From Zavarzinia marina (GTDB lineage: Bacteria; Pseudomonadota; Alphaproteobacteria; Zavarziniales; Zavarziniaceae): a stretch of DNA of 64,000 nt. The stretch lies in the NCBI RefSeq assembly GCF_021568905.1, contig NZ_JAKGSB010000002.1, positions 558,001 through 622,000 on the forward strand, in the 5' to 3' direction. Below are positions 42,116 through 59,695 of the stretch, in pieces. Each line of letters begins with the position of its first letter. Within the stretch, counting starts at the first letter, position 1. A program made the position numbers and the translations under genes. The notes beneath the pieces were generated by a model. It did not search any database. It saw only the letters and a program-made list of their open reading frames with translations, and had not been told where the DNA came from.

Positions 42116-43398
42116 TCGCCGCCCTCATAGGCTACGCGCCAGATCGTGCCGCCGACATCGTCGGCGACCAGCAGGGCGCCGTCGGGCGCCACCGCGACGG
42201 CGGCGGGCCGGCCCCAGACTTCCGCCCGACCGTCGCTGCCCGGGGCATCGAGGCGGAAACCGTCGAGGAAGATTTCATAGCGATTGGCGACCGGCCGCCC
42301 TTCCTCGAAATCGACGCGCGCGACCTGATAGCCGCGCGGCGTGCCGGCGTTCCAGCTTCCGTGCAAGGCGACGAAGGCGTCGCCACGATAGTCGGGGGGA
42401 AATGCCGCACCCGTGTAGAAGGCGAGGCCGAGGGGGGCGGAATGGCTGCGGAACAGGACCTCCGGCATGCGCGTGGCGGCGACCAGATCGGGGCTGCGGT
42501 CGCCGAAGCGCGGGTCCGGCACACCCATGTAGGCATAGGGCCAGCCGTAGAAGCCCCCCTGCACCACTTCCGCCAGATAATCGGGCACGAGATCGTCGCC
42601 GAGGCCGTCGCGCTCGTTCACCACGGTCCAGAGATGGCCGGTCCCCGGCTCGACCGCGAGACCGACCGGATTGCGCAGCCCCGCGGCGAAGGTCTCGCCC
42701 GTGCCGCCGGCGGCGGGATAGCGCCGGATGGTGGCGCGGGGCGCCGGCTCCTCCGCCAGATTGCCCTCGCTGCCGATGGCGACGAAAAAGGCGGAACCAT
42801 CCGCCGAAAAGGCGAGATTGCGGGTCCAATGGCCGCCCGGCTCGCCGAAATCGTCCTCGGCCGTGATCCGCTCGGGCGTGGCCGCCGCCCGCTCGGCGCC
42901 GTCGTAGGGCAGGCGCCAGACGCCATGGGCATCGGCGACGAAGAGCGTCTCGCCCTGGAAGGCGAGGCCATAGGGCAGTTCGAGACCGTCGAGATAGGCG
43001 CTGCGGCTCTCCGCCACGCCGTCGCCGTCGCCGTCGACCAGGCGCGTGACCACGCCGGCCCGCGACTGCGCCAGCAGGATCGCGCCATCGGGAGCCACGG
43101 CGAAGGCGCGGGGATGGGCCAGCCCGTCGACGAACAGATTGACCGCGAAGCCGGGCGGCGCCACGGGCGCCACGCCATCCGGCCGCGCCACTTTGCGCGG
43201 ACCGTTGTAGGCGCTGCCCGTGGCATGGGGCGGCGGCAGGTCGGCCGGATCGACCGAGATCGACATGCCCGGCTCCGAGCCGTGTGCCGGCGATGCGAGG
43301 GCGAGCGTCAGCAGGGTGAAGGAAGCTGTTAACCCGCGTCTGGCAGGATGCCGGCCATGCCCGATGCCGCCAAACCCTTCCCGATGAACCGCCGTCAT
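42112..43398 (-). CDS. PQQ-type sugar dehydrogenase / sorbosone dehydrogenase family
   Basis: About 428 residues. Six-bladed beta-propeller: GLAHPRAFAVAPDGAILLAQ, NLAFSADGSAFFVAIGSEGN, GLRNPVGLAVEPGTGHLW, GGFYGWPYAYMG and VWGRPAAVAVAPDGALLVAD. A signal peptide is present (LTASFTLLTLALASPAHGSE). The only start that retains it is ATG 43398, which overlaps the divergent Tat-protein gene start by 15 bases. A start at the Met just after the signal would give a cytosolic form. Probably periplasmic; substrate unknown. Confidence 0.85.
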   Translation of the reverse strand: MTAVHREGFGGIGHGRHPARRGLTASFTLLTLALASPAHGSEPGMSISVDPADLPPPHATGSAYNGPRKVARPDGVAPVAPPGFAVNLFVDGLAHPRAFAVAPDGAILLAQSRAGVVTRLVDGDGDGVAESRSAYLDGLELPYGLAFQGETLFVADAHGVWRLPYDGAERAAATPERITAEDDFGEPGGHWTRNLAFSADGSAFFVAIGSEGNLAEEPAPRATIRRYPAAGGTGETFAAGLRNPVGLAVEPGTGHLWTVVNERDGLGDDLVPDYLAEVVQGGFYGWPYAYMGVPDPRFGDRSPDLVAATRMPEVLFRSHSAPLGLAFYTGAAFPPDYRGDAFVALHGSWNAGTPRGYQVARVDFEEGRPVANRYEIFLDGFRLDAPGSDGRAEVWGRPAAVAVAPDGALLVADDVGGTIWRVAYEGGE

Positions 43399-43800
43399 TT
43401 CCTGACCCTCGCGCTTGGCGCGGGGCTTGCCGGCGCCGGCGCCCGTGGCGCCCGCGCGGAAGCCTCCCGCGATGGTATCGACATCGTCGGCACCATCGTC
43501 ATCCTGGCGCCATTCAACATCAGCGTCGTGCGCCGGGGCAAGGTCCGGGCGATCATGACCCTGGTCACCAATCTGGATATCGGGGATGCGATGCTGCGCG
43601 ATCGCATCTCGCACGAACTGCCGGTGCTGCGCGACGCCTATCTGCGCTGCCTGGACCCCTATGTCGACCGCCTGGACCTGCGCCAGACGCCGGACGTGGT
43701 GCGCCTGACACAGGTGCTGCAGCGGATGACCGACGGTCTCTACGGCAAGGGCGAGACGCGGGTGCTGGTCACCCACGCCACCCTGCGGCGGCTGGCCTGA
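43384..43800 (+). CDS. Tat-exported hypothetical protein
   Basis: 138 residues from ATG 43384. The N-terminus MNRRHFLTLALGAGLAGAGA is a twin-arginine signal (NRRHFLT). The mature part is short: ISVVRRGKVRAIMTLVTNLD, MLRDRISHELPVLRDAYLRC, then VLQRMTDGLYGKGETRVLVT. The arrangement vaguely recalls FliL-like periplasmic domains, but I cannot assign it. An upstream ATG at 43348 would add 12 residues before the signal. Divergent from the sugar dehydrogenase gene with overlapping 5' ends. Confidence 0.72.
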   Translation: MNRRHFLTLALGAGLAGAGARGARAEASRDGIDIVGTIVILAPFNISVVRRGKVRAIMTLVTNLDIGDAMLRDRISHELPVLRDAYLRCLDPYVDRLDLRQTPDVVRLTQVLQRMTDGLYGKGETRVLVTHATLRRLA

Positions 43801-43801
43801 C

Positions 43802-43854
43802 GGCGCGGCCCGCGCGCCGTTCGATCGGGCGAAACCCGCCGCGCGGGCCGCGCC
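43802..43854. terminator. Bidirectional terminator hairpin
   Basis: Perfect 15-bp inverted repeat GGCGCGGCCCGCGCG / CGCGCGGGCCGCGCC with a 23-base loop, sitting between convergent genes. No strong T-run on either strand, so it may work by blocking or be Rho-assisted. Confidence 0.65.
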
Positions 43855-43863
43855 CTCTCGGAT

Positions 43864-44862
43864 TCAGTTGGTGAGGGCGCCGGCGAAGCCGGTTTCACCG
43901 AACAGCAGGATCTTGCCGTCCTTGGTTTCATAGGCGGTGGCGAGCGCGTTGCGATCCTCGCGGGCGATACGCTCGAAGTTCTTGCCGCCGTCCTTGGAGA
44001 TCAGCACCGTTCCCTCGAGCCCGACCAGCAGGATACGGCCGTCCTTCAGGACGCGGCCGAACTGGATCGAGGAGATCGTCCCGGTCTCGGACTGCGACCA
44101 GCTTTCGCCCTGATCCGTGGTACGCCAGACATTACCACGCAGGCCCATCAGCAGCACCGAGCCGTCGTCCAGCGCGAGCACGTTCCAGAACGAGCCGCTG
44201 TAGGGCGTCTCGATGACCTTCAGCTCGGACAACTGGGGATCGGTCACGAACACGTGACCGGCCTCGCCCGCGATCCAGATCTTGCCGTCCTTCGCCTGGG
44301 TGAGCGCGTTCATGTGATAGTCGAGGTCGCCCATGGTCTTGGTGGACCAGGACTTGCCGCCGTCCTCCGTGACCACCACCAGGCTGTAGGCGCCGATGGC
44401 GAAGCCCGACTTGTCGTCGTTCATGAAGACGTCGAACAGGGGCGTCTCGAGTTCCGGGTCGTATTCGACCAGGGCCCAGGTGTCGCCGCCGTCCTCGGTG
44501 CGCAGGATGACCGCGTCATGACCGGTGATGAAGCCGAGCTTGTCGTCGACGAAACGGACCGCCGTGAAGGTCACGTTGACCGGCGACTGAATCTGACGCC
44601 AGGTCTGGCCCTCGTCGCTCGAAATCAGGATGTGGCCCCAGCTGCCCACGGCCACCAGGTGATCGCCGACCTTGGTGACGGCATTGATCAGCACCTTGTC
44701 GGCATAGGGCAGGTTCATCGAGGGGAAGGGTTCGAAATTGTCCTGGCCGAGCTGGGCCTCGGCATGCGCCGGCCGCGCGATCGCGGCGGCGCCCGCCGCG
44801 AGACCGAACGCGAGCAGCGCGGCGACGGCGCTGCGGCCGAAAGGAACGACACGGTCGGACAT
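43864..44862 (-). CDS. YCF48/BNR-repeat beta-propeller periplasmic protein
   Basis: 332 residues with a signal peptide (AVAALLAFGLAAGAAAIARP...AHA). At least five Asp-box motifs recur: ISSDEGQTWRQI, RTEDGGDTWALV, VTEDGGKSWSTK, RTTDQGESWSQS and ISKDGGKNFERI. This is the YCF48-like propeller seen beside DUF1302/DUF1329 genes in several proteobacteria, where an RND/MMPL transporter often follows; none does here. The start ATG 44862 has GGGGGAGAG upstream; ATG 44898 is an alternative. It follows DUF1302-1 by 86 bases and is followed by a terminator hairpin. Confidence 0.9.
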   Translation of the reverse strand: MSDRVVPFGRSAVAALLAFGLAAGAAAIARPAHAEAQLGQDNFEPFPSMNLPYADKVLINAVTKVGDHLVAVGSWGHILISSDEGQTWRQIQSPVNVTFTAVRFVDDKLGFITGHDAVILRTEDGGDTWALVEYDPELETPLFDVFMNDDKSGFAIGAYSLVVVTEDGGKSWSTKTMGDLDYHMNALTQAKDGKIWIAGEAGHVFVTDPQLSELKVIETPYSGSFWNVLALDDGSVLLMGLRGNVWRTTDQGESWSQSETGTISSIQFGRVLKDGRILLVGLEGTVLISKDGGKNFERIAREDRNALATAYETKDGKILLFGETGFAGALTN

Positions 44863-44948
44863 AAAGCTCTCCCCCAGGCGTTTTCTGTTCTTTGACATGG
44901 TTCTGCCGCTTGTAGCCCGAGTCCCGCCGGTTTTCAACGCAAGCCGCA

Positions 44949-47189
44949 TCAGAATATGTACGAGACGCTGAGGCCCACGAAGTCGCGGTCGATATAGGGA
45001 TTGCGCGCCCCGCCCGTGCCGCCGCCGCCGCCCCAGCTCTTGAAATAGTTGAGGTTGAGGGTCCAGGCGTTCAGATAGTCGAACTTCAGGCCGAAGTTCA
45101 TCGAGGTGACGCTCTTGGTGAAGCCCGGATTGGGTGCCGGCGTGATGCCGAAGATGCCGTGGGAGAAACCGACCGACGGGGTCATGGTGACGCCGCTCAT
45201 GATGTTCGGGTAGTCCCAGAACAGCAGGCCCTGCACGCCGCCGGACCAGCGGGTCGGCTGCTTGCCGGTCGGCGGGAACATGGGGCCGAGACTGGTCGCC
45301 TCGATCGACTCGATGATCGGAATGCCGCCGATGGTCAGCGGCCGCGTGCGGAAGCCCGAGAAGCCGTTCTGACCATAGGAGGCATATTGCGTCTCCTTGT
45401 TCAGATCGATGTAGAGGGCGCCGAATTCGACCAGGGCGAAGAGCTGGTTGGCGCCGAGAACGCGGGTGACGAAATCGCTGCCGCCGCGGATCTGGGTGAA
45501 GCGCAGCGCCGCCTGCCAGACGTCGTGGCGCTCGTCCAGGGTCTGGCTGCGGCCCGGCGTGAACTGATTGTCGAATTCCTGGAAATCCGTGTCGAGCAAC
45601 GGGGCGATACCCGGGTTGCGGACGCCGAGGGGGGTCGGCGCCTTGGTCGCCTGGTCGATCGGCACGCCGCCGCCGCCATCGTAGACGGCCGCCAGGAACG
45701 CCGGTTCGGAGAACCACACCGGGGCATCGTGCTTGTAGCTGATCTCGGCATTGATGGCGACGCCGAGGGGGTCGTAGGTGGTGTTGAAGGCAAAGCCGAT
45801 CATATCGATGCCTTCGGGGTAATACATGTAGAGATGGCCGTTCTCGAGGTTCTCGAGGACCGTCGAACGGGGAGCGGTGCCAAAGGGCGGATCGACCAGT
45901 TGCGACGTGATCGGTCCGGTCAGGGCGCCGACGAGATCGGACACCGGGCCCGTGCCGAGCAGCGCGCCGACCGCCGACGACAGGGCGTCGAGATTGCCCT
46001 GGGCGACGGTGTCGAGCACGTCGTCGACCAGGGGCGCGGGCAGCGCGGCAAGGTTCAGTTCGCCCGTGCCGTCGGCATATTGCGACGGCGCCACCGCCTT
46101 CAGCGACGGCAGGCGCGAGGTGTAGTTGATGTAGTAGAGCTGGAACTCGGTATTGTTGAGTTCCGGCACGAAGTAACGCAGCGCGACGCCCCAGTCGTTG
46201 ACGTCCGGATCGTCCATCTGTTCGATCGGGCCGTTCACCGCGATCATTTCGGCGTTCGGATCGTCGTAATCCGACGGGTTCATGCCCGTGCCCGTGGTGT
46301 AGGAGCGGGTATCCATCGGATCGGTGAAGCTGGAGGCGAATTTCACCCCGTCGCAGAAATTGTCGGTGAAGGAGAAGAAGCTGCCGCAGGGATCGAGCTT
46401 GTAGGGCTCGAAATCGAGTTGGTAGAAGGCTTCCAGCGACATGCCCTCGATCACGTCGATGCCGGCCGAGATCATGGGCACCGGAATCAGCGCGTCCTTC
46501 AGTTCGGCGCCCGGGGTGCGGATCTTGGCGACGTCGATCGGGTTGATCACCGAGATGCCGTTGATGGTGAACAGCGCCTCGCCCCAGTTCAGGATCTGGC
46601 TGCCGACCTTCACCGTCAGGAAGCGGTCGAAGACGTCGAAATTGCCGCCGATGTAGTAGTCGAGAACCTTGGCGTCCCAATCCGCCTTGTGTTCCGCGCC
46701 GGCCGGGTAACGCCCGCTGGTATAGGGCCGCGTCTCCGGCATGAAATCGGCAAGGTCGTTGTTGGCCGCGATCGAATCGTAGAAGGCGACGCCGCGCGTG
46801 AAGAGGAAGAAGTCGCGCCAGCTCAGGCTCAGTTCGGCGCTCGCCGTGGTGATCTGGCTGATGACGTCGTATTTCTCGAAGTTCAGGTTGCCGTCGTCGT
46901 TGCCGGACGAGATCAGGCCGCCGCCGTAGTAATAGCCGTAGTTGCGCGGATCGCGGTCCGCCATGCGGAACTGGGCGCCGGTCGAGAGCGAGACGATGAG
47001 CGAGCCGCTGACCTCGTCGGTCAGATCGAAATCGAAGGCGAAGGCCGAGGTTCCGATCGCGCCCGAGCCGAGAGCGACCGCCAGGGCGACCGTCGCCGCG
47101 GTGCCGCGAAGGCGGCCCGTCTTCGTTCCGTCATATGCGAAAGCAGGCGCGGCCCGGCCGGCCTTTGCGCGATTCTGCGCAAGTCTCAT
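44949..47189 (-). CDS. DUF1302 outer-membrane protein, paralogue 1
   Basis: 746 residues. Signal peptide, then FDFDLTDEVSGSLIVSLSTG and QFRMADRDPRNYG, the paralogue signature. NWGEALFTINGISVINPIDV and AKIRTPGAELKDALIPVPMI are shared with paralogues 2 and 3. The C-terminus NPYIDRDFVGLSVSYIF ends in Phe and alternates like a beta-barrel end strand, which fits outer-membrane insertion by Bam. Residues ~366-438 form an Ala/Leu-rich insertion (LDALSSAVGALLGTG) absent from paralogue 3. Cys268 and Cys279 may pair. Start ATG 47189 has GGGGGGAA upstream. Function unknown; probably a porin for a hydrophobic ligand. Confidence 0.9.
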   Translation of the reverse strand: MRLAQNRAKAGRAAPAFAYDGTKTGRLRGTAATVALAVALGSGAIGTSAFAFDFDLTDEVSGSLIVSLSTGAQFRMADRDPRNYGYYYGGGLISSGNDDGNLNFEKYDVISQITTASAELSLSWRDFFLFTRGVAFYDSIAANNDLADFMPETRPYTSGRYPAGAEHKADWDAKVLDYYIGGNFDVFDRFLTVKVGSQILNWGEALFTINGISVINPIDVAKIRTPGAELKDALIPVPMISAGIDVIEGMSLEAFYQLDFEPYKLDPCGSFFSFTDNFCDGVKFASSFTDPMDTRSYTTGTGMNPSDYDDPNAEMIAVNGPIEQMDDPDVNDWGVALRYFVPELNNTEFQLYYINYTSRLPSLKAVAPSQYADGTGELNLAALPAPLVDDVLDTVAQGNLDALSSAVGALLGTGPVSDLVGALTGPITSQLVDPPFGTAPRSTVLENLENGHLYMYYPEGIDMIGFAFNTTYDPLGVAINAEISYKHDAPVWFSEPAFLAAVYDGGGGVPIDQATKAPTPLGVRNPGIAPLLDTDFQEFDNQFTPGRSQTLDERHDVWQAALRFTQIRGGSDFVTRVLGANQLFALVEFGALYIDLNKETQYASYGQNGFSGFRTRPLTIGGIPIIESIEATSLGPMFPPTGKQPTRWSGGVQGLLFWDYPNIMSGVTMTPSVGFSHGIFGITPAPNPGFTKSVTSMNFGLKFDYLNAWTLNLNYFKSWGGGGGTGGARNPYIDRDFVGLSVSYIF

Positions 47190-47368
47190 GAGTTCCCCCC
47201 TTGGCGCCCGTGCCCGGTTTCCGGATCACGTGCCGGCGCTTCCTTCCCGTCCAGCCGGTGCCCGCCACTCTGTCGGTGGCCTTCTCGGCTTTTTGCTTTT
47301 CAAGCGGAATTCAACAGTCAGCGGTATGTCGGGGGAAGTCGGTTTTGTCCCAAATCGACGGGAACACG

Positions 47369-47395
47369 AAAAAAGGCGCGGCAGAATGCCGCGCC
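47369..47395 (-). terminator. Rho-independent terminator after the broken DUF1329 gene
   Basis: GGCGCGGCA-TTC-TGCCGCGCC followed by TTTTTT on the minus strand, 26 bases past the DUF1329 stop. A textbook intrinsic terminator; it separates the DUF1302-2/DUF1329 unit from DUF1302-1. Confidence 0.92.
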
Positions 47396-47420
47396 TTTCG
47401 TTCGATCGGTGCCGTCCGGA

Positions 47421-48794
47421 TCAGCGGGTGCCGAGGCGGCGCACCGCGTCCGGCGTGAACTGGCTCGGGTCGACGTCGGTCGCATTCAGGTTGAACTGCT
47501 TTTCCTCGTTCTTCAGGGCGAAGACGATGTAGCGGCCCGACTGCAGGTCATAGGTCACTTCCAGCGCCGACGAGCACAGCGGCAGTTCGTAGGCGTTGGA
47601 GATCGGGCCTTCCTGCACGCGGAACAGCTCGCCGCGCTTGTCGTAGATGTCGACGGCGGCGATGTTCCAGCTGTCCTCGTCGAGATAGAAGACCCGGCGG
47701 CCGAAGATGTGCTGCGAACCTTCCTTCAGCTTCGAATCGACGACCCACACGCGGTGCAGCTCGTAGCGGCCGTAGGCCGGGTTCAGGGTGTTCGGCGTCA
47801 ACAGCTCGTCGTACTTCACGTTGACCGAGTAGTTGTTGTAACCGATTTAGACTTCCTTCTTGCCCTTCAGGTCGAAGTTGTAGCGATCGGTCGCGCCGTT
47901 ATACATGTCGAACTGGTCGGTCGTGGCCAGGCCGTCGGTGTTGTACAGCGGGTTGTCGTAGGCCAGTTCCGGCGCACGCAGGATGCGGCGGGTGCCGGGG
48001 TTGTAGATCCAGGCCTGACGCGGCATGTCCTTGGCGTTGATGGTGTCGTGCACCAGCACCACCTGACCGGCCAGACGCGCCGGCGACGTGGTGATGTTGA
48101 TGTAGGAAATGCCGATGTTGTTGAGCTGCTTGATGTCGGTGACGTCGCCGACTTCCTTCAGACCCGGCCCGTTGTAGTGGAAGATGCCGAAATCTTCGTT
48201 CTTGAACAGCGTGTAGGAACCATCGCGGTTCACCGCGGCGGACGCGAAGTAGCGGCGGAACTTGAAGCCGCGATAGCGCAGGCGGTGGTTCCAGATCGCC
48301 TCGACGCCGCTCTGCGGGATCGGGAACGGATTGCCGAGAAGGGCGTCGTTCAGGCCGTTCTTGTCCTCCGTCATGGTGGCGGTCAGGGCGTTCTTCTTGT
48401 TCGCCTCATAGACGCGCTCGGGCAGGGCGCAGGTGCGGCGGGTTTCGAACACGCGCAGATAGGAGGCCGGATAGAGCTTCGTCATGGCGACGGCGCCGGG
48501 CGAGAGCTTGTCCGCGTATTGGTCGACGTTGGTGGCGTCGATCTTGAACTTCATCTGGTCGTTGGGGAACGGATCGACGTATTTGCCGCCGGGGACATAG
48601 CCCGCGGGCGGCGTGGTCAGGCCGCCGGTCCATTCCGGGATGGTGCCGTCGGCGTTGCCGGCCTTGACGGCGCCCATCGGGGTCAGATCCTTGCCGAGAC
48701 GCTCGGCCTCGGCCTGAGGCACCTTGGCGAAAGACGGCGAGCCGGCGATGCCCGCCAGCATGACGCCGGCGAGAACGGCCTTTGCGATCTTCAT
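47421..48794 (-). pseudogene. DUF1329 gene interrupted by one in-frame TAA
   Basis: A 458-codon frame encodes a DUF1329 protein, except for a TAA at 47849-47847. Before it: signal peptide, LGKDLTPMGAVKAGNADGTI, PEWTGGLTTPPAGYVPGGKY and so on, ending DLKGKKEV. After it, in the same frame: IGYNNYSVNVKYDELLTPNT, RYELHRVWVVDSKLKEGSQH and the C-terminal DAVRRLGTR. The intact paralogue reads KQEAYIGYNAYRA at this point, so the lost codon was probably TAC (Tyr). No other lesion is visible, which suggests a recent mutation or a sequencing error. If real, the product is a 315-residue truncation lacking the last third (~142 residues). Confidence 0.9.
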
Positions 48795-48829
48795 TTTGTC
48801 TCCTCCTGAAGCTCTCTCTGGGCGCTTGA

Positions 48830-51193
48830 TCAGAATTGGTAGTTAAGCGTTACGCCGACGAAGTCACGATCGATGTAGGGGTTCCGCGCACCGGCCGCCC
48901 CGCCGCCGCCGCCCCAACTCTTGTAGTAGTTCACGATGACCGACGTGTTGTTCAGATAGTCGGCCTTGAGCTGGAAGTTCACGGAATGAACGCTCTTGGT
49001 GAAGCCGGGATGTGGAGAGGGCGTCGTTCCGAACAGCCCCGACGAAAAGCCGACGGCCGGCGTAAGCGTGACGCCACTCAAGATGTTCGGGTAGTCCCAG
49101 AAGATCAACCCTTGAACACCGCCGGACCAGCGCGTCGGCGCCTTGCCCGTTTCAGGGAAATAGAATCCGTCCGGCCCATAGGCCGGCAGATCCGTCGCCA
49201 TGATCGGCGGCACGACCGTCAGGCCGTTGGCCAGGCTCAACGGCGACGTGCCGAAGCCGGAATAGCCGAACTGGCCGTAGGACGCATATTCCTGGTCCTT
49301 GTTCAGGTCGAAGTAGAGAGCGCCGAATTCGACCAGGGCCGTGACCCCCGACGCCCCCAGGATCTCCGTGATCAGGTCGGTCGCCGCGAACAGTTTGGTG
49401 AAGCGCAGCGACGCCACCCACATGTCGTGCTTCTCGTCGAGATAGACGGTGTTCGGACCCGCGCTCGAGAAATCGGGCGATGCGGTGCCCGGCACGTTGA
49501 CGATCGGCGCGATGCCCGGGTTCTCACCCGGCGCGCCCAGGGCGGTGATCGGGGCATCGGTGACCGGATCGACCGGCACGCCGCCCGCATTGTTGTAGGT
49601 CGTGACCACGAAGTCGGTCTCGGCCTTGAAGACCGGCACGTTGTGTTTCCACGACACTTCGAAGTTGATGGCCACGCCCGACCATTCCTCGAGCGTATTG
49701 AAGGCGAAACCGACCATGTCGATGCCGCTCGGGTAATATTTGTGCAGCACCGTGTTCTCGAGGTTCTCGAGCACGGCCGAGCGCGGATAGGTCCCGTAGG
49801 CCCCACCGGACCCGTCGGTCAGCAGGGCATCGACCAGGGGCTGCGCCAGCGGATCCGCGAGTGCGGCCACGATATCGGTCACCGACGAGGCGACCGGCGT
49901 GTTCAGGAGCCCGGTGAGGGACGAGGCGAGGTCGCCCAGCGCCGGCACGCCGAGGCCGGAGACGACACCGCCGAGCAGATCCGGCACCGCCGTGACCAGC
50001 CCGGTGCCGCTCAGCTTGCCGGTTCCGTCCGCATCGTGCGGAACCACCGCCTTGATCGACGGCAGGCGGCTCGTATAGCGCATGTAGTAGAACTGGAATT
50101 CCGTGTTGTTCAGTTCCGGCACCAGGGCACGCAGGGCGACGCCCCAATCGTTGACCGAATCCGGCTTGTCGTCCTGGAGCTTCATGTTGACCGAGACGAG
50201 GCGCGGCCCGCCCAGGTCCCACGCCTGATCGTAGTCGCCCGGATTCTGCCCGGTGCCGGCGTTGTACGCGCGGGAATCGCCGTAGTCGCTGAGCACGGAA
50301 ATGCCCATGGCGCCGTCGCACAGTGCATCGGTGAACGAGAAATAGCTGCCGCAGGCCTCGAGCTTGAAGGGCTCGAAACCCCATTGGTAGAAGGCTTCGA
50401 GCGAGATGCCGCTGAACAGATCGATCGAATTGGAGATCATCGGCACCGGGATCAGCGCGTCGCGCAGTTCGGCGCCGGGCACGCGGATCTTGGCGACGTC
50501 GATCGGGTTGATGACCGAGATGCCGCCGATGGTGAACAGCCCCTCGCCCCAGTTCAGGACCTGATTGCCGATCTTCAGCGTGCCGTAGCGATCGCCGAGC
50601 TGATAATTGTAGCCGATCAGATAGTCCAGCATCTGCGCGCCGTAACGCGCGTTTTCCTGGGCCTTCGGATTGTATTCGCCCCGATAGGGCCGTTCGGCCG
50701 GGCCGTTGTCCGACAGATTGTTGGCATCCGCGATCGAATCGTAGAATGCCGTGCCGCGAGCATAGAGATAGAAGTCCCGCCACTTCAGGCTCAGTTCCGA
50801 CGTCACCGTCGAGATCTGCGAGAAGACGTCGTACTTGTCGAAATTCAGGTTGCCGTCGTCGGTGCTGGCGGAATGGGACGCGCCACCATTGTAGATGCCG
50901 ACGTTGCGCGGATCGCGATCCGCCAGGCGCATCTGGAAACCGGTCGAGAGCGAGGTGATGATCGAGCCGCTGACCTCGTCGCTCAGATCGAAGTCGACCG
51001 CGAGCGCGGGAACGGCGACGCCGAGGGCGACGGCGGCCGTCAGCATGGCGCGGACCACGCGCGGCCGGAAACGGCTGCGTGCCGGCTCGGCTTCGGCGGC
51101 GATCATCGACGGAATGGCGAATGGTGTCATTTTTTTCGGTGCGGATTCCGCCCCCCGTTGCCGGGCGGAAGCACCACGATACGCGGCACCCAT
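48830..51193 (-). CDS. DUF1302 outer-membrane protein, paralogue 2
   Basis: 787 residues from ATG 51193, which has GGAGGGGAG upstream; the frame is open to 51253. A ~65-residue N-terminal stretch precedes the mature start (VRAMLTAAVALGVAVPALAV). VDFDLSDEVSGSIITSLSTG, MRLADRDPRNVG, NWGEGLFTIGGISVINPIDV and the C-terminal NPYIDRDFVGVTLNYQF are the shared paralogue signature. Residues ~383-468 are an Ala/Leu/Gly/Val-rich insertion (LLGGVVSGLGVPALGDLASS) at the same place as in paralogue 1. Paired with the broken DUF1329 gene 35 bases downstream. Confidence 0.9.
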   Translation of the reverse strand: MGAAYRGASARQRGAESAPKKMTPFAIPSMIAAEAEPARSRFRPRVVRAMLTAAVALGVAVPALAVDFDLSDEVSGSIITSLSTGFQMRLADRDPRNVGIYNGGASHSASTDDGNLNFDKYDVFSQISTVTSELSLKWRDFYLYARGTAFYDSIADANNLSDNGPAERPYRGEYNPKAQENARYGAQMLDYLIGYNYQLGDRYGTLKIGNQVLNWGEGLFTIGGISVINPIDVAKIRVPGAELRDALIPVPMISNSIDLFSGISLEAFYQWGFEPFKLEACGSYFSFTDALCDGAMGISVLSDYGDSRAYNAGTGQNPGDYDQAWDLGGPRLVSVNMKLQDDKPDSVNDWGVALRALVPELNNTEFQFYYMRYTSRLPSIKAVVPHDADGTGKLSGTGLVTAVPDLLGGVVSGLGVPALGDLASSLTGLLNTPVASSVTDIVAALADPLAQPLVDALLTDGSGGAYGTYPRSAVLENLENTVLHKYYPSGIDMVGFAFNTLEEWSGVAINFEVSWKHNVPVFKAETDFVVTTYNNAGGVPVDPVTDAPITALGAPGENPGIAPIVNVPGTASPDFSSAGPNTVYLDEKHDMWVASLRFTKLFAATDLITEILGASGVTALVEFGALYFDLNKDQEYASYGQFGYSGFGTSPLSLANGLTVVPPIMATDLPAYGPDGFYFPETGKAPTRWSGGVQGLIFWDYPNILSGVTLTPAVGFSSGLFGTTPSPHPGFTKSVHSVNFQLKADYLNNTSVIVNYYKSWGGGGGAAGARNPYIDRDFVGVTLNYQF

Positions 51194-51425
51194 CCTGTAA
51201 ACTCCCCTCCACGCGTTCAGTCCCGGGTCTTTCGGCGGCGTGTCTGCGTGCACACCTGCCGGACAATTGCCTTACACCGACCCAAGGTATCGCCGTTTAA
51301 GGCATAGCCCGGGTCTGGTTGTCGCGACAAAAATGCTCCGGTCCCTCAGTAATACGCCCAAACCGGTTTGACCATCGCCAAAACCAGAATCGGCGTCATT
51401 TTTTGGGGCGATCGCCTGCGCGGCC

Positions 51426-53453
51426 TCAGAAGACGTAGGATGCGGTGAAACCGATGAAATCGCGGTCGATATAGGGATTGCGGGAACCGCCGCCCCCGCC
51501 CCCGCCGCCCCAGCTTTTGAAATAGGTCACCTGGAAGCCGTATTTGCTGAGGTAGTCCGCCTTGAAGCCGACGTAGAGGGAGTTGACGCTCTTGGTGAAG
51601 CCCGGGTTGGGGGCCGGCGTGGTACCGAACAGGCCGGTGGAAACCGCCAGGAAGGGAGTCAGGTTGATGCCCATGTCGAAGGCGTTCGGATAGTCCGCGA
51701 AGGCGAGGCCGGTGACGCCGCCGGACCATTGGGTGGGCGGCTTCCAGGTTGCCGGCACCCGAGGGTCGCCCTGGTCTGGCAGGTACAGGGCGGGCACGAC
51801 CTCCACTCCCGGCACGACCTCGAGGGGGCGGGTCGAGAAGCCGCTGAAGCCGTTCTGACCATAGGACGCATAATCATAGGGCCCGTCCGGATCGATGTCG
51901 AAATAGAGGGCGGCGGCTTCCGCCAGCACGGTCATCGCGTTCGCCCCGATGGCCGAGACCAGCCAATGGGTCGTGGGCAGGATCTTGGTCACCCTGATGT
52001 TGGCGTTCCACATGTCGTGCGGCTCGTCGAGCCGCAGATCGACCGGACCGTCCGCCAGTTCCTCGTAGGGGTAGCCGGTTTCGACATAGGGCGCGAAGCC
52101 GAAGGCCTCGCCCGCCAGCAGCGGGTTGCCGCCCGCGTAATTATAGACCGTGAAGGTCAGCGTCGGCTCGGAGATCCAGACCGGCACGTTCCACTTGTAG
52201 GAAATCTCGCCGTTGACGGCGATGCCGAGGGCGTCGACCGTCGTGTTGAAGCTGAGCCCCAGCATCTCGACGTCGTCCGGGTAATAGATCGTGAGCTGGC
52301 CGTGATCGAGATTGTCGAGCACGGTGGAACGCGGCCGCGTGCCGAAGGCCCGGGACGGATAGGGCAGGCCGTTGATGGTGCCGGTGTTCGGGTTCAGATA
52401 GTCGGAATTGGCGCGGATCGACGGCAGGCGGCTCTGATAGTGGACATAGTAGAGACCGAATTCGGTGTTGTTCAGTTCGGGCGAGAAATAGCGGAGCGCC
52501 ACGCCCCAGTCGGTGCCGCTGGCATCGTCGTCCACCCGCGCGTCGGCGGTGATGCCGTCGTAGGTGGCGAAATCGTCGTTGGGATCGTTGCGGCCCTTGT
52601 AGTAGGAGCGCGTGTCGGCGAAATCGGTGCCGACGCCCACCCCCCTGGTGCCGGTGCAGAACGTATCGGTCGATGAAAAGAAGCTGCCGCAGGCCTCGAG
52701 CTTGTAGGGCTCGAAGTCGAAGGCGACGAAGGCCTCCATCGAAAGTCCGTCGAAGAGCTGATAGGACGCCGACAGCATGGGGATCGGGATCAGGGCATCG
52801 CGCAGTTCGGCGCCGGGCGTGCGGATCTTGGCGACGTCGATCGGGTTGATCACCGAAATGGCGTTGATGGTGAACAGCGCCTCGCCCCAGTTCAGGACCT
52901 GATTGCCGAGCCGGATGGAGAGCGCGCGGTCGAGGACGTCGAAGTCGCCCGCGACATAGGCATCCATCAGGTCGACGTCGTAGCGGGCGTATTTGTGGCC
53001 GTGGCCGGTATAGGCGCCGCGCACGCCCCTCTCCTCGGGGCCGTTCACCGCGAGATCGTTGTTGTCGGCGATATAGTCGTAGAAGGCGGTGCCGCGCACA
53101 TAGGCGCGGTAGTTCTTCCAGCGCAGGCTGAGCTCGCTCGACACCGTGCCGACCAGGGTGATGAGATCGCCCCGGTCGAAGTTGAGATTGCCGTCGTCGT
53201 TGCCGGCGGTCGGCATGGCCCCGCCGTTGCTGAAGCCGACGTTGCGCGGGTCGCGGTCCGCCATGCGGACCTGGGTTCCCACCGACAGCGACGTGATGAT
53301 GCTTCCGGTTACATCACCCCAATCCAGCTCGACGGCGGCCGCGCCGCCGACCCAGGCCGCCGAGACGGCGATGGCGACGATCGAGGCACCCGCCGCGATC
53401 GCGCCGCCACGGCCCCCGGCGCAAGAACCGCGCGAAAGCGCATCTTTTCCCAT
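51426..53453 (-). CDS. DUF1302 outer-membrane protein, paralogue 3
   Basis: 675 residues, the shortest of the three similar paralogues. Signal peptide (IAAGASIVAIAVSAAWVGGA), VELDWGDVTGSIITSLSVGT, RMADRDPRNVGFSNGG, NWGEALFTINAISVINPIDV, C-terminal NPYIDRDFIGFTASYVF. It lacks the hydrophobic mid-protein insertion of paralogues 1 and 2: SRLPSIRANSDYLN leads into PRSTVLDNLDHG within about 35 residues. Stands alone, with a terminator-like hairpin upstream after the intact DUF1329 gene and no DUF1329 downstream. Confidence 0.9.
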   Translation of the reverse strand: MGKDALSRGSCAGGRGGAIAAGASIVAIAVSAAWVGGAAAVELDWGDVTGSIITSLSVGTQVRMADRDPRNVGFSNGGAMPTAGNDDGNLNFDRGDLITLVGTVSSELSLRWKNYRAYVRGTAFYDYIADNNDLAVNGPEERGVRGAYTGHGHKYARYDVDLMDAYVAGDFDVLDRALSIRLGNQVLNWGEALFTINAISVINPIDVAKIRTPGAELRDALIPIPMLSASYQLFDGLSMEAFVAFDFEPYKLEACGSFFSSTDTFCTGTRGVGVGTDFADTRSYYKGRNDPNDDFATYDGITADARVDDDASGTDWGVALRYFSPELNNTEFGLYYVHYQSRLPSIRANSDYLNPNTGTINGLPYPSRAFGTRPRSTVLDNLDHGQLTIYYPDDVEMLGLSFNTTVDALGIAVNGEISYKWNVPVWISEPTLTFTVYNYAGGNPLLAGEAFGFAPYVETGYPYEELADGPVDLRLDEPHDMWNANIRVTKILPTTHWLVSAIGANAMTVLAEAAALYFDIDPDGPYDYASYGQNGFSGFSTRPLEVVPGVEVVPALYLPDQGDPRVPATWKPPTQWSGGVTGLAFADYPNAFDMGINLTPFLAVSTGLFGTTPAPNPGFTKSVNSLYVGFKADYLSKYGFQVTYFKSWGGGGGGGGSRNPYIDRDFIGFTASYVF

Positions 53454-53645
53454 GCCGCCCCTCCCTGCGGCGGGCCGGGAACCTTGTCACGCGGTTGCCC
53501 TCTCTGCCCGCCCGATCGCGAGTTTTCTCGCTTTCACTGCAAAGAGTTTTACAGGCCGGTTCAAATTTGTCGCCGCCTATTGCCTTCAGTTCTCCGGTAA
53601 TCAGGACCATTACGGTCGTAACGGCGGACGGCGCGCGCGAAACGA

Positions 53646-53671
53646 AACGGGCGGCCCGAGGGCCGCCCGTT
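53646..53671 (-). terminator. Terminator after the intact DUF1329 gene
   Basis: AACGGGCGGCC-CTCG-GGCCGCCCGTT followed by TCGTTTCGC on the minus strand, 22 bases past the stop. Weaker T-run than the terminator at 47.4 kb. Confidence 0.75.
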
Positions 53672-53692
53672 CATGATTGCGGAGGAGGTCGC

Positions 53693-55075
53693 TCAGCGCG
53701 TGCCGAGGCGGCGCAGCGCATCCGGATTGTAGCGCTCGGGCTGCAGTTCCGTCGCGTTGAAGTCGATCGGCGTCTCTTCCATGTTCATGGTCTGCGCCAG
53801 ATAGCGGCCCGACTGCAGATCGTAGTCGACCTCGAAGATCTGGTTGCAGGACTTGGCGTCGTAATAATTGATGATCGGGCCGTCCTGCACCCGCCACAAT
53901 TCGCCGCGCGAGTCGTAGAGCGAGATGTTGGTGAAGGTCCAGCTGTCCGCATCCTGGAAGATCACGCGCTTCGAATACTGGTGGCGCGAACCTTCACGGA
54001 CGCTCGCCTCGATCACGTTCACGCGCTGCAGTTCGTAACGCATGACGTCCTGATTGGGATGATTGGCGGTCAGGAATTCCTTGTAGGTCGTGTTGTTCGC
54101 ACGATAGGCGTTGTAGCCGATATAGGCTTCCTGCTTGCCGACCAGTTTCCAGGAATAGCGTTCGGGCGAACCGTTCATCATGTCGAACTGGTCGATGGTG
54201 GTCAGACCGTCGGCATTGGTGCCCGGATTGTCGAAGGCGAGATCCGGCGCGCGGACGACGCGGCGGGTGCCCGGATTGTACTGCCAAGCCTGGCGCGGGC
54301 CGACCTCGTCGCTGATGTTGTCGCGCACCAGGATGATCGAACCGGCGATGCGCGCCGGCGACGTGGTCATGGACAGATAGGTGATCCAGACATTGTCGAG
54401 CTGCGAGAGACTGGTGACGTCACCCGGTTCGCGCAGGCCCGGCCCCATGTAGTGCAGAATGCCTTCGTCCTGGCTCTTCACCAGATTGTAGTCGCCGCCG
54501 CGTGTGACCGCGGCAAGGGCGAAGGCGCGCTTGAACTTGAAGCCGAGACGCGGCCGGAAGCGGTGGTTCCAGAAGAATTCCACGCCTTCGGTCGCCAGCG
54601 GGAAGGGCACGCCGACGAGGCCTTCGACGAGGCCGTTGCCGTCCGCCGTCAGCTTGGCGACTTCCGCGTTCTTGCGGTTGGCGTCATAGACCTTCTGGGT
54701 GTAGGAGCACGAGCGCCGGCTCTGATAGACGTTCATCTTGTAGGTCGGATAGAGCTTCAGCAGGGCCATCTGCCCCGGCGAGAGCTTTTCCGCATATTGG
54801 TCGGCGTTCTGTCCGGTGATGGTGAACAGCACCGGATCGGACGCGAAGGGATCGACCAGGCGCTGTCCCGGCACGAAGCCCGGCGGCGGCGACTGGATGC
54901 CGCCGTCCCAGGCCGGGATGGTACCTTCGGCGTTGCCCGCCTTGATCGAACCCATGGGTGTCAGATCGGCGCCGAGGCGCGCGATCTGATCCGGCCCGCC
55001 CTTTGCCATGGCGGCACCGCTGCCGGCGAGGGCCACCAATCCGATGGCGAGCCCAAGATACGCAAAACGTTTCAT
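53693..55075 (-). CDS. DUF1329 outer-membrane lipoprotein-sorting-like protein, intact copy
   Basis: 460 residues from ATG 55075. Signal peptide MKRFAYLGLAIGLVALAGSG, then LGADLTPMGSIKAGNAEGTI, PAWDGGIQSPPPGFVPGQRL, RHQYSKRVIFQDADSWTF and the C-terminal DALRRLGTR shared with the broken copy. Probably periplasmic; I recall this family as having a LolB/lipoprotein-carrier-like fold, which would suit carrying a hydrophobic ligand, but no function is proven. It lies 85 bases downstream of DUF1302-4 and is followed by a terminator. Confidence 0.92.
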   Translation of the reverse strand: MKRFAYLGLAIGLVALAGSGAAMAKGGPDQIARLGADLTPMGSIKAGNAEGTIPAWDGGIQSPPPGFVPGQRLVDPFASDPVLFTITGQNADQYAEKLSPGQMALLKLYPTYKMNVYQSRRSCSYTQKVYDANRKNAEVAKLTADGNGLVEGLVGVPFPLATEGVEFFWNHRFRPRLGFKFKRAFALAAVTRGGDYNLVKSQDEGILHYMGPGLREPGDVTSLSQLDNVWITYLSMTTSPARIAGSIILVRDNISDEVGPRQAWQYNPGTRRVVRAPDLAFDNPGTNADGLTTIDQFDMMNGSPERYSWKLVGKQEAYIGYNAYRANNTTYKEFLTANHPNQDVMRYELQRVNVIEASVREGSRHQYSKRVIFQDADSWTFTNISLYDSRGELWRVQDGPIINYYDAKSCNQIFEVDYDLQSGRYLAQTMNMEETPIDFNATELQPERYNPDALRRLGTR

Positions 55076-55159
55076 GCGATGTCTCCCGCTTGGGTCGCGG
55101 TGATCCCGCGACCCGATTTTCTTTTCTTGTCCCCGGCCGATGGCCACCCCGTCCTTCGG

Positions 55160-57175
55160 TCAGAAGGAATAGGAAACGGTCATCTGGAAGAAGTCGCGAT
55201 CGTTCAGCAGGTTCTGCCGCCCGCCGCCGAAATAGTTCGTGTAACCGAGCGAGGCCTTCCAGGCGAGGAGATACTCCGCGTCGACCTGGAAGGTCAACGC
55301 GCTGGCATGCTCGACATAACCGCCGGTCAGCGGCGTATTGCCGAACAGGCCCGTCTGGAAACGGACGCTGGGCGTCAGATTGGCGCCGAACAGGGCGTCG
55401 GGATAGGAGGCCGAGAGGACGGCGGTAACGCCGCCCGACCAGTCCGATGCCGGCTCGTACTTGCTGGCGTTGGGATCGGTCGGATCGACGGCGGCGCCGG
55501 CGCCCGGCAGGCCATTGCCCGGCGCCTCCATGGCAAGCACGTTCTGATCCGGCAGGTTGGAATAGACCGCGCCGAATTCCGCCAGGAAGTTGACCGAATT
55601 CGATTGCAGGACCCGTGCCGGCAGGTCGGATGCGCCGAACGACTTGATGCCGCGCAGCACGAAGGTCTGCACGTCCTTGATCAGATAGCCGTCGACCCGG
55701 CCGCCTTCGCGCTCGGTCGCCCAGTTCATGAAGGTGCTGAGCTGGTTGCCGCGCCCGACGAGATTGCAGGGCAGACCGCCGGCGGGCACGATGCCGCAAA
55801 CGAAGGCGGTGGCATAGGTCTCGCCGTCGATCAGCACCGGCAGGTCGTGCATATAGGCGGTCTCGCCCGCGACAGAGATGCCGAGCCAGTCGATCGTCGT
55901 GTTGAAGCTGAACCCGAACATCTGCGTGTCGCCCGGGTTGGTCAGTATGATCTGGCTGTTCTTGGCGTTGTCAGCCGCCGCCAGGCTTACGAGGCTGTTC
56001 GGCGTCGACGCCGCTGCCTGCACCGCCGCGATCTGGGCCGGCGTCGCCCCCGGATTGGCGGCGACGAAATTCTGCACCGCACCCGTCACGAGCCGCGCCT
56101 GGATGGCGGGGTTGGTAAAGAGTTCCGCCTGGGTGATGTAATTGTCGCCGCTACCCGTGATGAAGCTCGGCACCGGGCTGCGCGGCGTGATGTTGGCGAA
56201 ATAGAAGCCGAATTCGGTGTTGTTCAATTCCGGCGCGAAGTATCGCATGGCGATACCGAAATTGTCGCCGTTGCTATTGTTTTCGAACTTCGGGCCGAGG
56301 GGCACGGAAATGCCACCGCCGTCCGGCAGGATCTGGTCGTAATCCTGGCTGCCGCCGAAGCCCGCCCCGCCCTTGCCGCCAACATCGGTGGTCGAGAAGA
56401 AGCTGCCGGCGGGGTCGGTCACACTGCTGCGGAAGTCGAACTGATAGAAGGCCTCGAAGGTGAGGCCGCCGCCGATGTCATAGGTGAGCACGGCCGCCGG
56501 CATGGAACGGACCGCGTCGCGGATTTCGGCGCCGGGAACGCGCAGCTTCGACTGGTCGAAGGAATTCACCTGGGCGAGGCTGAGCGGGGTGACCAGGGCT
56601 TCGCCCCAGGAGATCGTCTGCAGGCCGAGCTTGGCGGTCAGTTCGGTCGAGCCGATCGGGAAGCGCCCGCGCACCCAGAGGTCCATCAGCTCGTAATCAT
56701 GCGAGGAGACGTGGCGGGCGGCCGCGGTCTGCCGGCCCGAGAGATCGCGATAGCCGGTGACGCCGGGCGAGGCGGCGAGATCGCCATTGTCGTAGACACC
56801 GTCGTAGAACGCCTGACCGCGGCCATAGACGGTGAAATTCTCCCAATTCAGGGTGACTTCGCCCTGGGCGCGCACCGTCGCGAAGACGGGATCGTTGACG
56901 TCGAAGTTCAGGTTGCCGTCGTCGCCGTTACAGGTGGTCGCGGTACCGCCGGCGATATTCTGCGGACAGATCAGGCGCGGGTCGCGGTCCTGCGTGCGGA
57001 TGCCGAAACCGGCCGAGATGGTCACCTGGGTGACCACGTCGACCTCGCCGATCTGGAACTCGCTGGCCGATGCATTGGCGGCGATGCCGAAGACGGCAAT
57101 CGCCAGCGTGGTGGCGCCGACACCGAACGCCGCGGCGCGCGTCGAACGCGACCGATAGATACCCTTGTGCTTCAA
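55160..57175 (-). CDS. DUF1302 outer-membrane protein, divergent paralogue 4
   Basis: 671 residues. Signal peptide (TTLAIAVFGIAANASASEFQ), then VTQVTISAGFGIRTQDRDPR, SWGEALVTPLSLAQVNSFDQ, SKLRVPGAEIRDAVRSMPAA and a C-terminal NDRDFFQMTVSYSF. The signature is the same in outline but clearly diverged from paralogues 1-3 (no NPYIDRDF). A different mid-protein insertion occurs (FVAANPGATPAQIAAVQAAA). First gene of a unit with the intact DUF1329. An upstream inverted repeat overlaps a TTGACA box at ~57.39 kb. Confidence 0.9.
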   Translation of the reverse strand: MKHKGIYRSRSTRAAAFGVGATTLAIAVFGIAANASASEFQIGEVDVVTQVTISAGFGIRTQDRDPRLICPQNIAGGTATTCNGDDGNLNFDVNDPVFATVRAQGEVTLNWENFTVYGRGQAFYDGVYDNGDLAASPGVTGYRDLSGRQTAAARHVSSHDYELMDLWVRGRFPIGSTELTAKLGLQTISWGEALVTPLSLAQVNSFDQSKLRVPGAEIRDAVRSMPAAVLTYDIGGGLTFEAFYQFDFRSSVTDPAGSFFSTTDVGGKGGAGFGGSQDYDQILPDGGGISVPLGPKFENNSNGDNFGIAMRYFAPELNNTEFGFYFANITPRSPVPSFITGSGDNYITQAELFTNPAIQARLVTGAVQNFVAANPGATPAQIAAVQAAASTPNSLVSLAAADNAKNSQIILTNPGDTQMFGFSFNTTIDWLGISVAGETAYMHDLPVLIDGETYATAFVCGIVPAGGLPCNLVGRGNQLSTFMNWATEREGGRVDGYLIKDVQTFVLRGIKSFGASDLPARVLQSNSVNFLAEFGAVYSNLPDQNVLAMEAPGNGLPGAGAAVDPTDPNASKYEPASDWSGGVTAVLSASYPDALFGANLTPSVRFQTGLFGNTPLTGGYVEHASALTFQVDAEYLLAWKASLGYTNYFGGGRQNLLNDRDFFQMTVSYSF

Positions 57176-57598
57176 CTTGGCCTCCCACCCCTGATGTCCC
57201 GGTGCCGTCCGGCCCGGGGCTTGTCGTTCTCGGCGGTCTTCGCCCGGGCCGCGTTCGCAGCCGGGCGAATGGCGGTCGCCGCTCTTCCCTGCGGGGCTAG
57301 GCGTGTCTCATCGGACCGCCAGACCCCGTCTTATTGCATTGCAGCAACGCCAAAACCGCATGACTGCCTTAACCCACACCGTTCCCAAAACGGTGTCAAG
57401 TCTTTGCACGCGACGCGGGATTCTGGTGCAGTGCAAACCGTTGCGATTATGCCACATCGCGAAAAACGCCATATGGCGCAATCGCTTAGACTGACGGATT
57501 GTCAGCCGGATCGGCTCCTGCGGCAAATGCGCACATATGCCCATTTTGAGCATGTTTCGCCCATTATGGCAGCAAAACCGATTCCCTGCGATACCCCG
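57176..57598. other. Intergenic region between SMP-30-like gene and DUF1302-4
   Basis: 423 bases, AT-richer than its surroundings, without a convincing gene. Both flanking genes are on the minus strand, so it holds the promoter for DUF1302-4. Besides the repeat at 57376-57396 it contains TTTGCAC (57403-57409) facing GTGCAAA (57431-57437) and a GCCATATGGC palindrome (57468-57477). Confidence 0.6.
57376..57399 (-). promoter_or_regulatory. Inverted repeat overlapping a -35 box upstream of DUF1302-4
   Basis: ACACCGT-N7-ACGGTGT (57376-57396) is a perfect 7-bp inverted repeat. On the minus strand TTGACA (57399-57394), a consensus -35, overlaps its first bases. No strong -10 is seen at 16-18 bases. 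It could be an operator; the mRNA leader would be about 190 bases. Confidence 0.5.
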
Positions 57599-58678: not shown

Positions 58679-59695
58679 ATGACGCGAGTGCGCCTTTTCA
58701 ACGCCGCCGGTTTCAGGGCTGCCGGTCCGGCGCTCGCCTCCGCCGCCCTGGCGGCCGTCCTCGCCGTCGCCGTACCCGCGCCCGCCGTGCAGTTCGAGGC
58801 CGGCGCCGGCATCAGCCTGGAACTCTCGCCCTTCGCGGGCTATTGCGCCCTGGACGAGACGCGCACGACCGAGGCCAATCTGATCCGCAGCTTTCGCGAG
58901 CGTGTCAGCGAATCGATGCGCCTCGTCCTCGCCTTCGGCGACTGCGAGGAATTGGTCGAGTTTCGTGACGGCACGCGCCCGTTCCTGAACCGCTTCGGGC
59001 AGATCCTGCTGGTCGCCCAATCGGGCGAGGTCCAGCCCGTATCGGAAACCCGGGGCGAATATCTGGCCAATGTCGCCCGCTCCTTCCCGACCGCGACCTT
59101 CGAGGAGGTCGCGGCCAACGGCGAGGCGCAATTCGACGCCGCCCGCCCGGCCGATGCGCCGCGACCGTTGTTCGCCGTGGTCGGACGCGACGAGCTGGCG
59201 CTCTATATCGCGACCGCCAGCCTTCAGGGACAGGACGACAACCGCATCAAGGTCGCCGGCGTCGCGGGTGTCACCGTGGTGCGTCAATTGCCCCTGACCG
59301 TGAATCTGTTCTCGGCCTACGCGGGCGATGCCGCCACCGGGACCGCGACCCTCGAGGATCTCCACCTCCAGATGGCCGCGGGCATCGCCGACCTGCAGTT
59401 CGTCAACGAGGATGTGGAAAAGCAGGCGGCCCTGCCGCCGCCCAGCCGGGGCGAATGGCGGGCCATGGGCTCGACCGCCCTGGTCGGCGCCCTGGTCGGC
59501 GGCCTGATCGGCGGCATCGGCGCCATGGTCATCATCCTGTTGCGGCGCCGGCGCCGGCCGGCGGCCCCGGACGAGACGGAGCCCGAAGTGGAGACCGAGC
59601 CCGAGGCGGGCGTGGCGGCCGAGCCCGGGACGGCGGATGCGTCCCCCGATGGCGACGGCAGAAAACCCGAACCCCGGACCGAAGGCGGCGCTTGA
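58679..59695 (+). CDS. Membrane-anchored protein of unknown function
   Basis: 338 residues from ATG 58679; ATG 58667 is an alternative. Signal peptide (ALASAALAAVLAVAVPAPAV), a ~220-residue extracytoplasmic domain with two Cys (GYCALDETR and FGDCEELVEF), then a transmembrane helix at ~263-287 (LVGALVGGLIGGIGAMVIIL) with a basic stop (RRRRRP) and an acidic Glu/Pro-rich cytoplasmic tail. The order predicts a type I single-pass protein. No family recognised. It is followed 57 bases later by an orphan binding protein on the same strand. Confidence 0.78.
   Translation: MTRVRLFNAAGFRAAGPALASAALAAVLAVAVPAPAVQFEAGAGISLELSPFAGYCALDETRTTEANLIRSFRERVSESMRLVLAFGDCEELVEFRDGTRPFLNRFGQILLVAQSGEVQPVSETRGEYLANVARSFPTATFEEVAANGEAQFDAARPADAPRPLFAVVGRDELALYIATASLQGQDDNRIKVAGVAGVTVVRQLPLTVNLFSAYAGDAATGTATLEDLHLQMAAGIADLQFVNEDVEKQAALPPPSRGEWRAMGSTALVGALVGGLIGGIGAMVIILLRRRRRPAAPDETEPEVETEPEAGVAAEPGTADASPDGDGRKPEPRTEGGA

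Follow-up and report, generated by a model that had tools for sequence, protein, structure and literature searches.

A conserved gene array in Zavarzinia marina carries the barrel, carrier and propeller parts of an AmeABCD-type system, with a candidate pump encoded on another contig

Results

The stretch of DNA analysed here (the window, 64,000 nucleotides, positions 558001 to 622000 of contig C10 in the 3.95 Mb Zavarzinia marina genome, G000) holds a gene array on its minus strand, read from 57175 down to 43864. Using A for DUF1302, B for DUF1329, C for a YCF48 propeller and D for a HAE3/RND (AmeD-type) pump, a Pfam search of the window gave the order A1-B1-A2-A3-B2-A4-C. DUF1302 matched four of these genes (Pfam E 3.5e-137 to 1.9e-128), DUF1329 two, and PSII_BNR/YCF48 the propeller gene. 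Every array protein has a signal-peptide-like start and all four barrels have F as the last residue. The original prediction of this gene content, on one strand and all exported, is borne out by the Pfam matches and the termini, save that B2 is not an intact open reading frame. Rfam and tRNA searches of the 64-kb window were both empty.

The order and flanks of the array are kept in six Zavarzinia genomes, one of which (G005) is truncated by a contig end. The context, with an upstream SMP-30-like lactonase and the same downstream neighbours, is identical in G001 to G004 and in the surviving part of G005. Compared with their relatives, the array genes have dN/dS values of 0.15–0.52, lowest in the carriers and A3 and highest in A1 and the propeller. 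The conservation of order and flanks, together with dN/dS, is far beyond chance. Of the catabolic neighbours first suggested, only the SMP-30-like lactonase is conserved next to the array; about 15 kb of sequence with unrelated genes separates the carboxylase from it. We note that a gene adjoining the array (58688–59695, plus strand) encodes a conserved, exported-looking protein of 335 aa without a Pfam match.

A terminator-like hairpin with a T-rich tail, identified by folding and kept in five genomes, is located 3′ of B1 (53647–53670, minus strand); a terminator 3′ of B2 (47371–47399, minus strand) has a 13-bp stem and T run and is kept in relatives. The strong hairpin at 43801–43863 (minus strand, fold −45.6 kcal/mol) lies in the gap between C and the convergently oriented 43348–43800(+), and is a possible bidirectional terminator. 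Hairpin and fold scans with genome alignment found no terminator between A2 and A3. Terminators do therefore divide the array, and their positions after B1, B2 and the propeller support three units, not the four proposed at the outset.

Upstream of A1, a perfect dyad, ACACCGTT-N5-AACGGTGT (57376–57396), overlaps a TTGACA −35-like box and has 0 mismatches in five genomes; the chance expectation in the window for a match with at most 3 mismatches is 0.04. Alignment of the five genomes located a second conserved inverted repeat, TGAC-N5-GTCA (57492–57504), and a third, conserved but imperfect one, GC(A/G)TTGCTGCAATGC (57336–57350), in the same upstream region. The whole genome contains one other dyad site with at most 2 mismatches (C10:6434, 2 mismatches), which adjoins the core AmeD pump gene (C10:6527-8965) just downstream of it. 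This site is missing from all five orthologous regions, and a control with the pattern backward gave 0–2 sites of that quality per genome; it is therefore treated as chance and the dyad was rejected as a regulon marker. It was also the sole candidate in the originally proposed search for RND genes carrying the same dyad. Neither the orphan D described below nor its TetR neighbour was found to have the array dyad nearby, thus there is no sign of co-regulation. Since the C10:6434 site is unconserved, the array dyad appears to be a single-site operator. A different conserved motif, TAGTCYGYAYGGACCATGC, at L043:6253-6523 and in the orthologous loci L123–L127, is situated upstream of hydrolase-DUF1302-DUF1329 genes; it differs from the array dyad and may be another operator.

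The four DUF1302 outer-membrane barrel genes, all on the minus strand, are A1 (55160–57175; 671 aa, TTG start; PF06980 1.5e-128), A2 (51426–53453; 675 aa; PF06980 3.5e-137), A3 (48830–51193, with the start codon uncertain within 51106–51193; PF06980 1.9e-128) and A4 (44949–47189; 746 aa; PF06980 8e-136). A1, which has a signal-like N-terminus and C-terminal F, is 55–66% identical to its orthologues in G001 to G004; the corresponding values are 78–87% for A3 and 73–85% for A4. The A1 orthologue of G002, a low-coverage draft, carries an in-frame TAG (L093, G002:C358:11853-13799), which is either an error of sequencing or the second case of a broken array gene in the genus.

Searching the PDB by sequence for A2 and B1 yielded nothing usable, and a fold search was therefore used. 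The AlphaFold model of A2 (pLDDT 70.7) has about 18 long strands and matches OccK, OpdK, OprD and BenF with Z 19–22 (21–22 for OccK, OpdK and BenF) and rmsd 3.3–4.0 over approximately 295–330 residues; identity to these solved channels is 8–12%. DUF1302 is the sole Pfam match of A2, which places it outside the OprD family by sequence, so in the model A2 is an OprD-type barrel by fold and not OprD by sequence. The original assignment of DUF1302 proteins as outer-membrane channels is thus supported at the level of the fold. Taken with the four PF06980 matches and the termini, the barrel model identifies the array's A proteins as exported DUF1302 outer-membrane proteins of the AmeA kind.

With OccK/OprD/BenF substrate channels as the nearest matches of the A2 model, the barrels might simply be pump-free OprD/BenF-like diffusion channels for catabolic substrates, DUF1329 serving as a periplasmic buffer or chaperone. 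Such a reading would also suit the solitary A genes (L056 and L057) and the dispersed A/B pairs near catabolic genes. We nevertheless consider it unlikely. A conserved propeller closes the array and propellers elsewhere go with D, A-B-C-D is the usual cluster outside the family, and knockouts of the A/B and pump loci in P. putida have a common phenotype (PMC10866462).

B1 (53693–55075, minus strand, 460 aa; PF07044 6.9e-123) is a LolA-like DUF1329 carrier. Its AlphaFold model (pLDDT 79.5) matched LolA3 (9tp6, Z 21.2), a DUF1329 structure (4z48, Z 19.8) and LolA (2w7q, Z 9.0) in the fold search. This LolA-type carrier fold supports, again at fold level, the earlier proposal that DUF1329 is a periplasmic carrier. 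With PF07044 and the LolA fold, the array's carriers belong to the DUF1329/LolA superfamily of AmeB, one of the two copies being broken in this strain. The folds of the A2 and B1 models do not in themselves show function.

The broken copy, B2 (47421–48794, minus strand), is interrupted at codon 316 by an in-frame TAA (47847–47849), beyond which the frame runs on to 47421; PF07044 matches both halves. A Tyr occupies the stop position in the orthologues of G002, G003, G004 and G005, and the G001 orthologue aligns over its full length. The dN/dS of head and tail are alike, consistent with a stop that is recent or a sequencing error. It therefore appears that the TAA is specific to this strain, being either a recent nonsense mutation or an error of sequencing. 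Recoding at this position was rejected, since the readable orthologues have Tyr and the DUF1329 copies of the same genome are otherwise free of stops.

The fold of B is that of the LolA/LolB lipoprotein carriers, which raises a further reading, in which lipids, lipoproteins or some other component of the envelope would be exported to the cell surface and the system would provide no route for exogenous hydrocarbons. The best solved relative of core AmeD is the hopanoid transporter HpnN, and the array and orphan D are kept in another genus that has few further sets, both in keeping with this role. Set against it are the characterised relatives, which are linked to monoterpenes, Tween 20 and benzene (PMC6394551, PMC10866462, PMC13101534), and the several relatives in the same genome that lie within catabolic clusters; we judge envelope export to be quite improbable.

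The array is closed by C (43864–44862, minus strand), a YCF48/BNR propeller of 332 aa (PF14870 4.8e-21) found in the orthologous position in six genomes. It is a COG4447/YCF48-like propeller of the periplasmic AmeC kind and scores 404 bits with the AmeC profile built here, a profile that includes the array C sequence itself. Among the 6 propellers counted, it is the only AmeC of the genome without a linked AmeD.

A census of the genome gave 14 DUF1302, 15 DUF1329, 6 propellers and 6 AmeD-type pumps. C and D occur together in five cassettes (L043, L044, L048, L049 and L050), leaving over the array C without D and a D at C9:1018012-1020375 (L059) without A, B or C. This orphan D is the only one of the 6 AmeD-type pumps that has no propeller. 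A further AmeD-profile match at L059 (36 bits) is a HAE1-sized protein. The AmeD-type profile constructed for this analysis did not match a nearby RND gene at C10:624-626 kb, which adjoins an MFP-sized gene; by size and arrangement this gene was classed as HAE1-like and left out. The window contains no RND/MMPL gene, as originally noted, though the genome has six AmeD-type pumps; the array therefore has no HAE3/MMPL pump in its own cassette, the orphan D being on C9.

The same leftovers recur in the genus. Of the 8 C and 8 D of G001, seven of each are linked as pairs, which again leaves over the array C and the C9-type D. The census of G003 and G004 agrees with an orphan C and an orphan D, save for fragments at contig edges: one other apparently unlinked D of G003 has a C missed by the Pfam model and a D fragment lies at a contig end, and the remaining unlinked items of G004 are fragments at contig ends. 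The pairing count excludes G002 and G005, drafts about 75% complete. We note that G004 has 36 DUF1302 matches, some of them fragments, compared with 14 in G000. The orphan D is 86–93% identical across the genus, is syntenic where contigs allow (Band7-GATase-SBP8-D-TetR-DoxX), and has no A, B or C near it in the genus. In the genus and in G006 alike, the TetR-like gene (L059:16601-17281) lies directly upstream of the pump and is a candidate regulator of it.

In G006, a 92% complete draft from a second genus of the family, the one DUF1302 gene is truncated by a contig end. Its A-B-C locus has no D and is followed by an orthologue of 43348(+); the orphan D is present at 78% identity. We infer an ancestor in which D already lay at a different locus from A-B-C, the array having expanded in Zavarzinia. 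Outside the family, A-B-C-D are found as compact clusters.

In the trees, A1 and B1 group with a distant pair on C9, and the other array A and B genes with copies on C9, C10, C12 and C15. Simple recent tandem duplication was rejected because the trees place A1 and B1 beside the C9 pair and set B2 among pairs of C10, C12 and C15. None of these array-like copies has an adjoining D, giving at least 9 barrels and at least 6 carriers for one unpaired pump. The census thus fits the original suggestion that a distal transporter may serve several channels.

Other loci of the genome showed further features. On C12, a LuxI-type autoinducer synthase gene (L052:13466-14092) adjoins an array-type DUF1302/DUF1329 pair. 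On C9, a sulfatase and a formylglycine-generating-type enzyme (L054:13006-15461) follow the A/B pair most like A1/B1, a gene context that may hint at sulfated substrates. At L048:6135-8012 and L050:10966-12867, proteins of 625–633 aa without a Pfam match occupy the barrel position and are possibly a divergent barrel family. L043 (C10:1-18000) has a full A-B-C-D set amid HsaA/B/C/D-like and KshB-like genes, the neighbours comprising an acyl-CoA-dehydrogenase-type protein, a flavin reductase, a BphC-type dioxygenase, an alpha/beta hydrolase and a ferredoxin-type reductase. This gene set suggests steroid or aromatic meta-cleavage.

The array could instead work with the pump of another cassette, chiefly core AmeD, which belongs to a steroid/aromatic meta-cleavage-like cluster, with the orphan D serving something else. 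Core AmeD is present as one copy in each of the six Zavarzinia genomes (82–92% identical), and in G000 the two-mismatch dyad lies just downstream of it. That the five orthologous regions lack this dyad counts against such a partnership. Core AmeD moreover is already linked to a C, an A and a B, this A and B falling in clades other than those of the array, and in the 92% complete draft of G006, where A-B-C and the orphan D are present, core AmeD was not found. We regard service by another cassette's pump as rather unlikely.

Discussion

On balance we favour, with moderate confidence, the view that A, B and C of the array belong to an AmeABCD-type system that moves hydrophobic small molecules across the envelope and that the distal orphan D (C9:1018012-1020375) serves many A/B pairs. 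The homology of the parts, the barrel and carrier folds, the conserved gene order, the conserved single orphan C and orphan D and the lack of a D beside the A/B pairs are what we observe; from these we infer that C and D pair and are shared, and what the cargo and its direction might be. Drawing on the proton motive force, D with C as its cap would move cargo between the inner membrane and the LolA-like B. B would carry the cargo over the periplasm and hand it to the OprD-like, approximately 18-strand barrel A, which would be the passage through the outer membrane, distinct A/B pairs being used for distinct compounds. Much as TonB serves many receptors, a single D with the single orphan C would serve the array, and probably also the array-type pairs at dispersed loci.

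The published evidence on direction conflicts, as related genes are required for growth on substrates (PMC10866462) yet the Nile Red result points to export (PMC6394551). Because the pump is of the HAE3 type and because of this Nile Red result, we lean slightly towards outward transport; the growth requirement on several substrates makes uptake nearly as likely.

A broader proposal, which we put forward tentatively and hold to be somewhat doubtful, is a hub-and-spoke arrangement. One orphan HAE3-type pump and one propeller would serve at least 9 DUF1302 barrels and at least 6 DUF1329 carriers at several loci, with the substrate range set by outer-membrane/periplasmic pairs exchanged around a fixed pump. 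If true, this would be TonB-like logic assembled out of RND and LolA components. The names DUF1302 and DUF1329 still mark both families as unknowns, yet they recur in hydrocarbon and steroid degraders. Zavarzinia sets the pump apart from the barrels by genome position and retains just one propeller and just one pump that have no partner, thereby posing the question of whether a single RND pump can drive many channels in the outer membrane.

The system had been called undescribed. Its parts are, however, homologous to those of AmeABCD (PMC6394551) and to the Tween 20 genes of P. putida (PMC10866462); what is new here is the split of pump from barrels, the protein kinds themselves being already known. 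AmeABCD of Castellaniella defragrans consists of a DUF1302 protein (A), a LolA-type DUF1329 protein (B), a COG4447/YCF48-like protein (C) and a HAE3 RND pump (D); cells from which it is deleted tolerate monoterpenes less well and accumulate more Nile Red (PMC6394551). The same four kinds of protein are found in Zavarzinia, where the array differs in having A four times and B twice, C at the end, and D alone on another contig. With the pump outside the locus, the array is not a canonical AmeABCD cassette in the strict sense; it probably works like one.

In P. putida, PP_0765/PP_0766 and PP_2018/PP_2019 are all required for growth on Tween 20, and a complex was proposed from AlphaFold contacts (PMC10866462). 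PP_0765/PP_0766 resemble the array in being an A/B pair encoded away from its pump. The second P. putida locus combines a periplasmic protein with the pump, whereas Zavarzinia keeps C with A/B and leaves D alone. The benzene-linked 'Nanopod' cluster of ORM2a (Desulfobacterota), for which the authors leave the direction open (PMC13101534), resembles the array in its porin-like protein, DUF1329 and YCF48-related protein, with an MMPL pump as the pump part. It is a single compact cluster with the pump linked, unlike the Zavarzinia array. The comparison with TonB/ExbB/ExbD and its many TonB-dependent receptors is one of analogy only: there too, one energised inner-membrane unit serves many outer-membrane channels. 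There is no homology between the two, the Zavarzinia parts being instead a HAE3 pump, a propeller and a LolA-like carrier.
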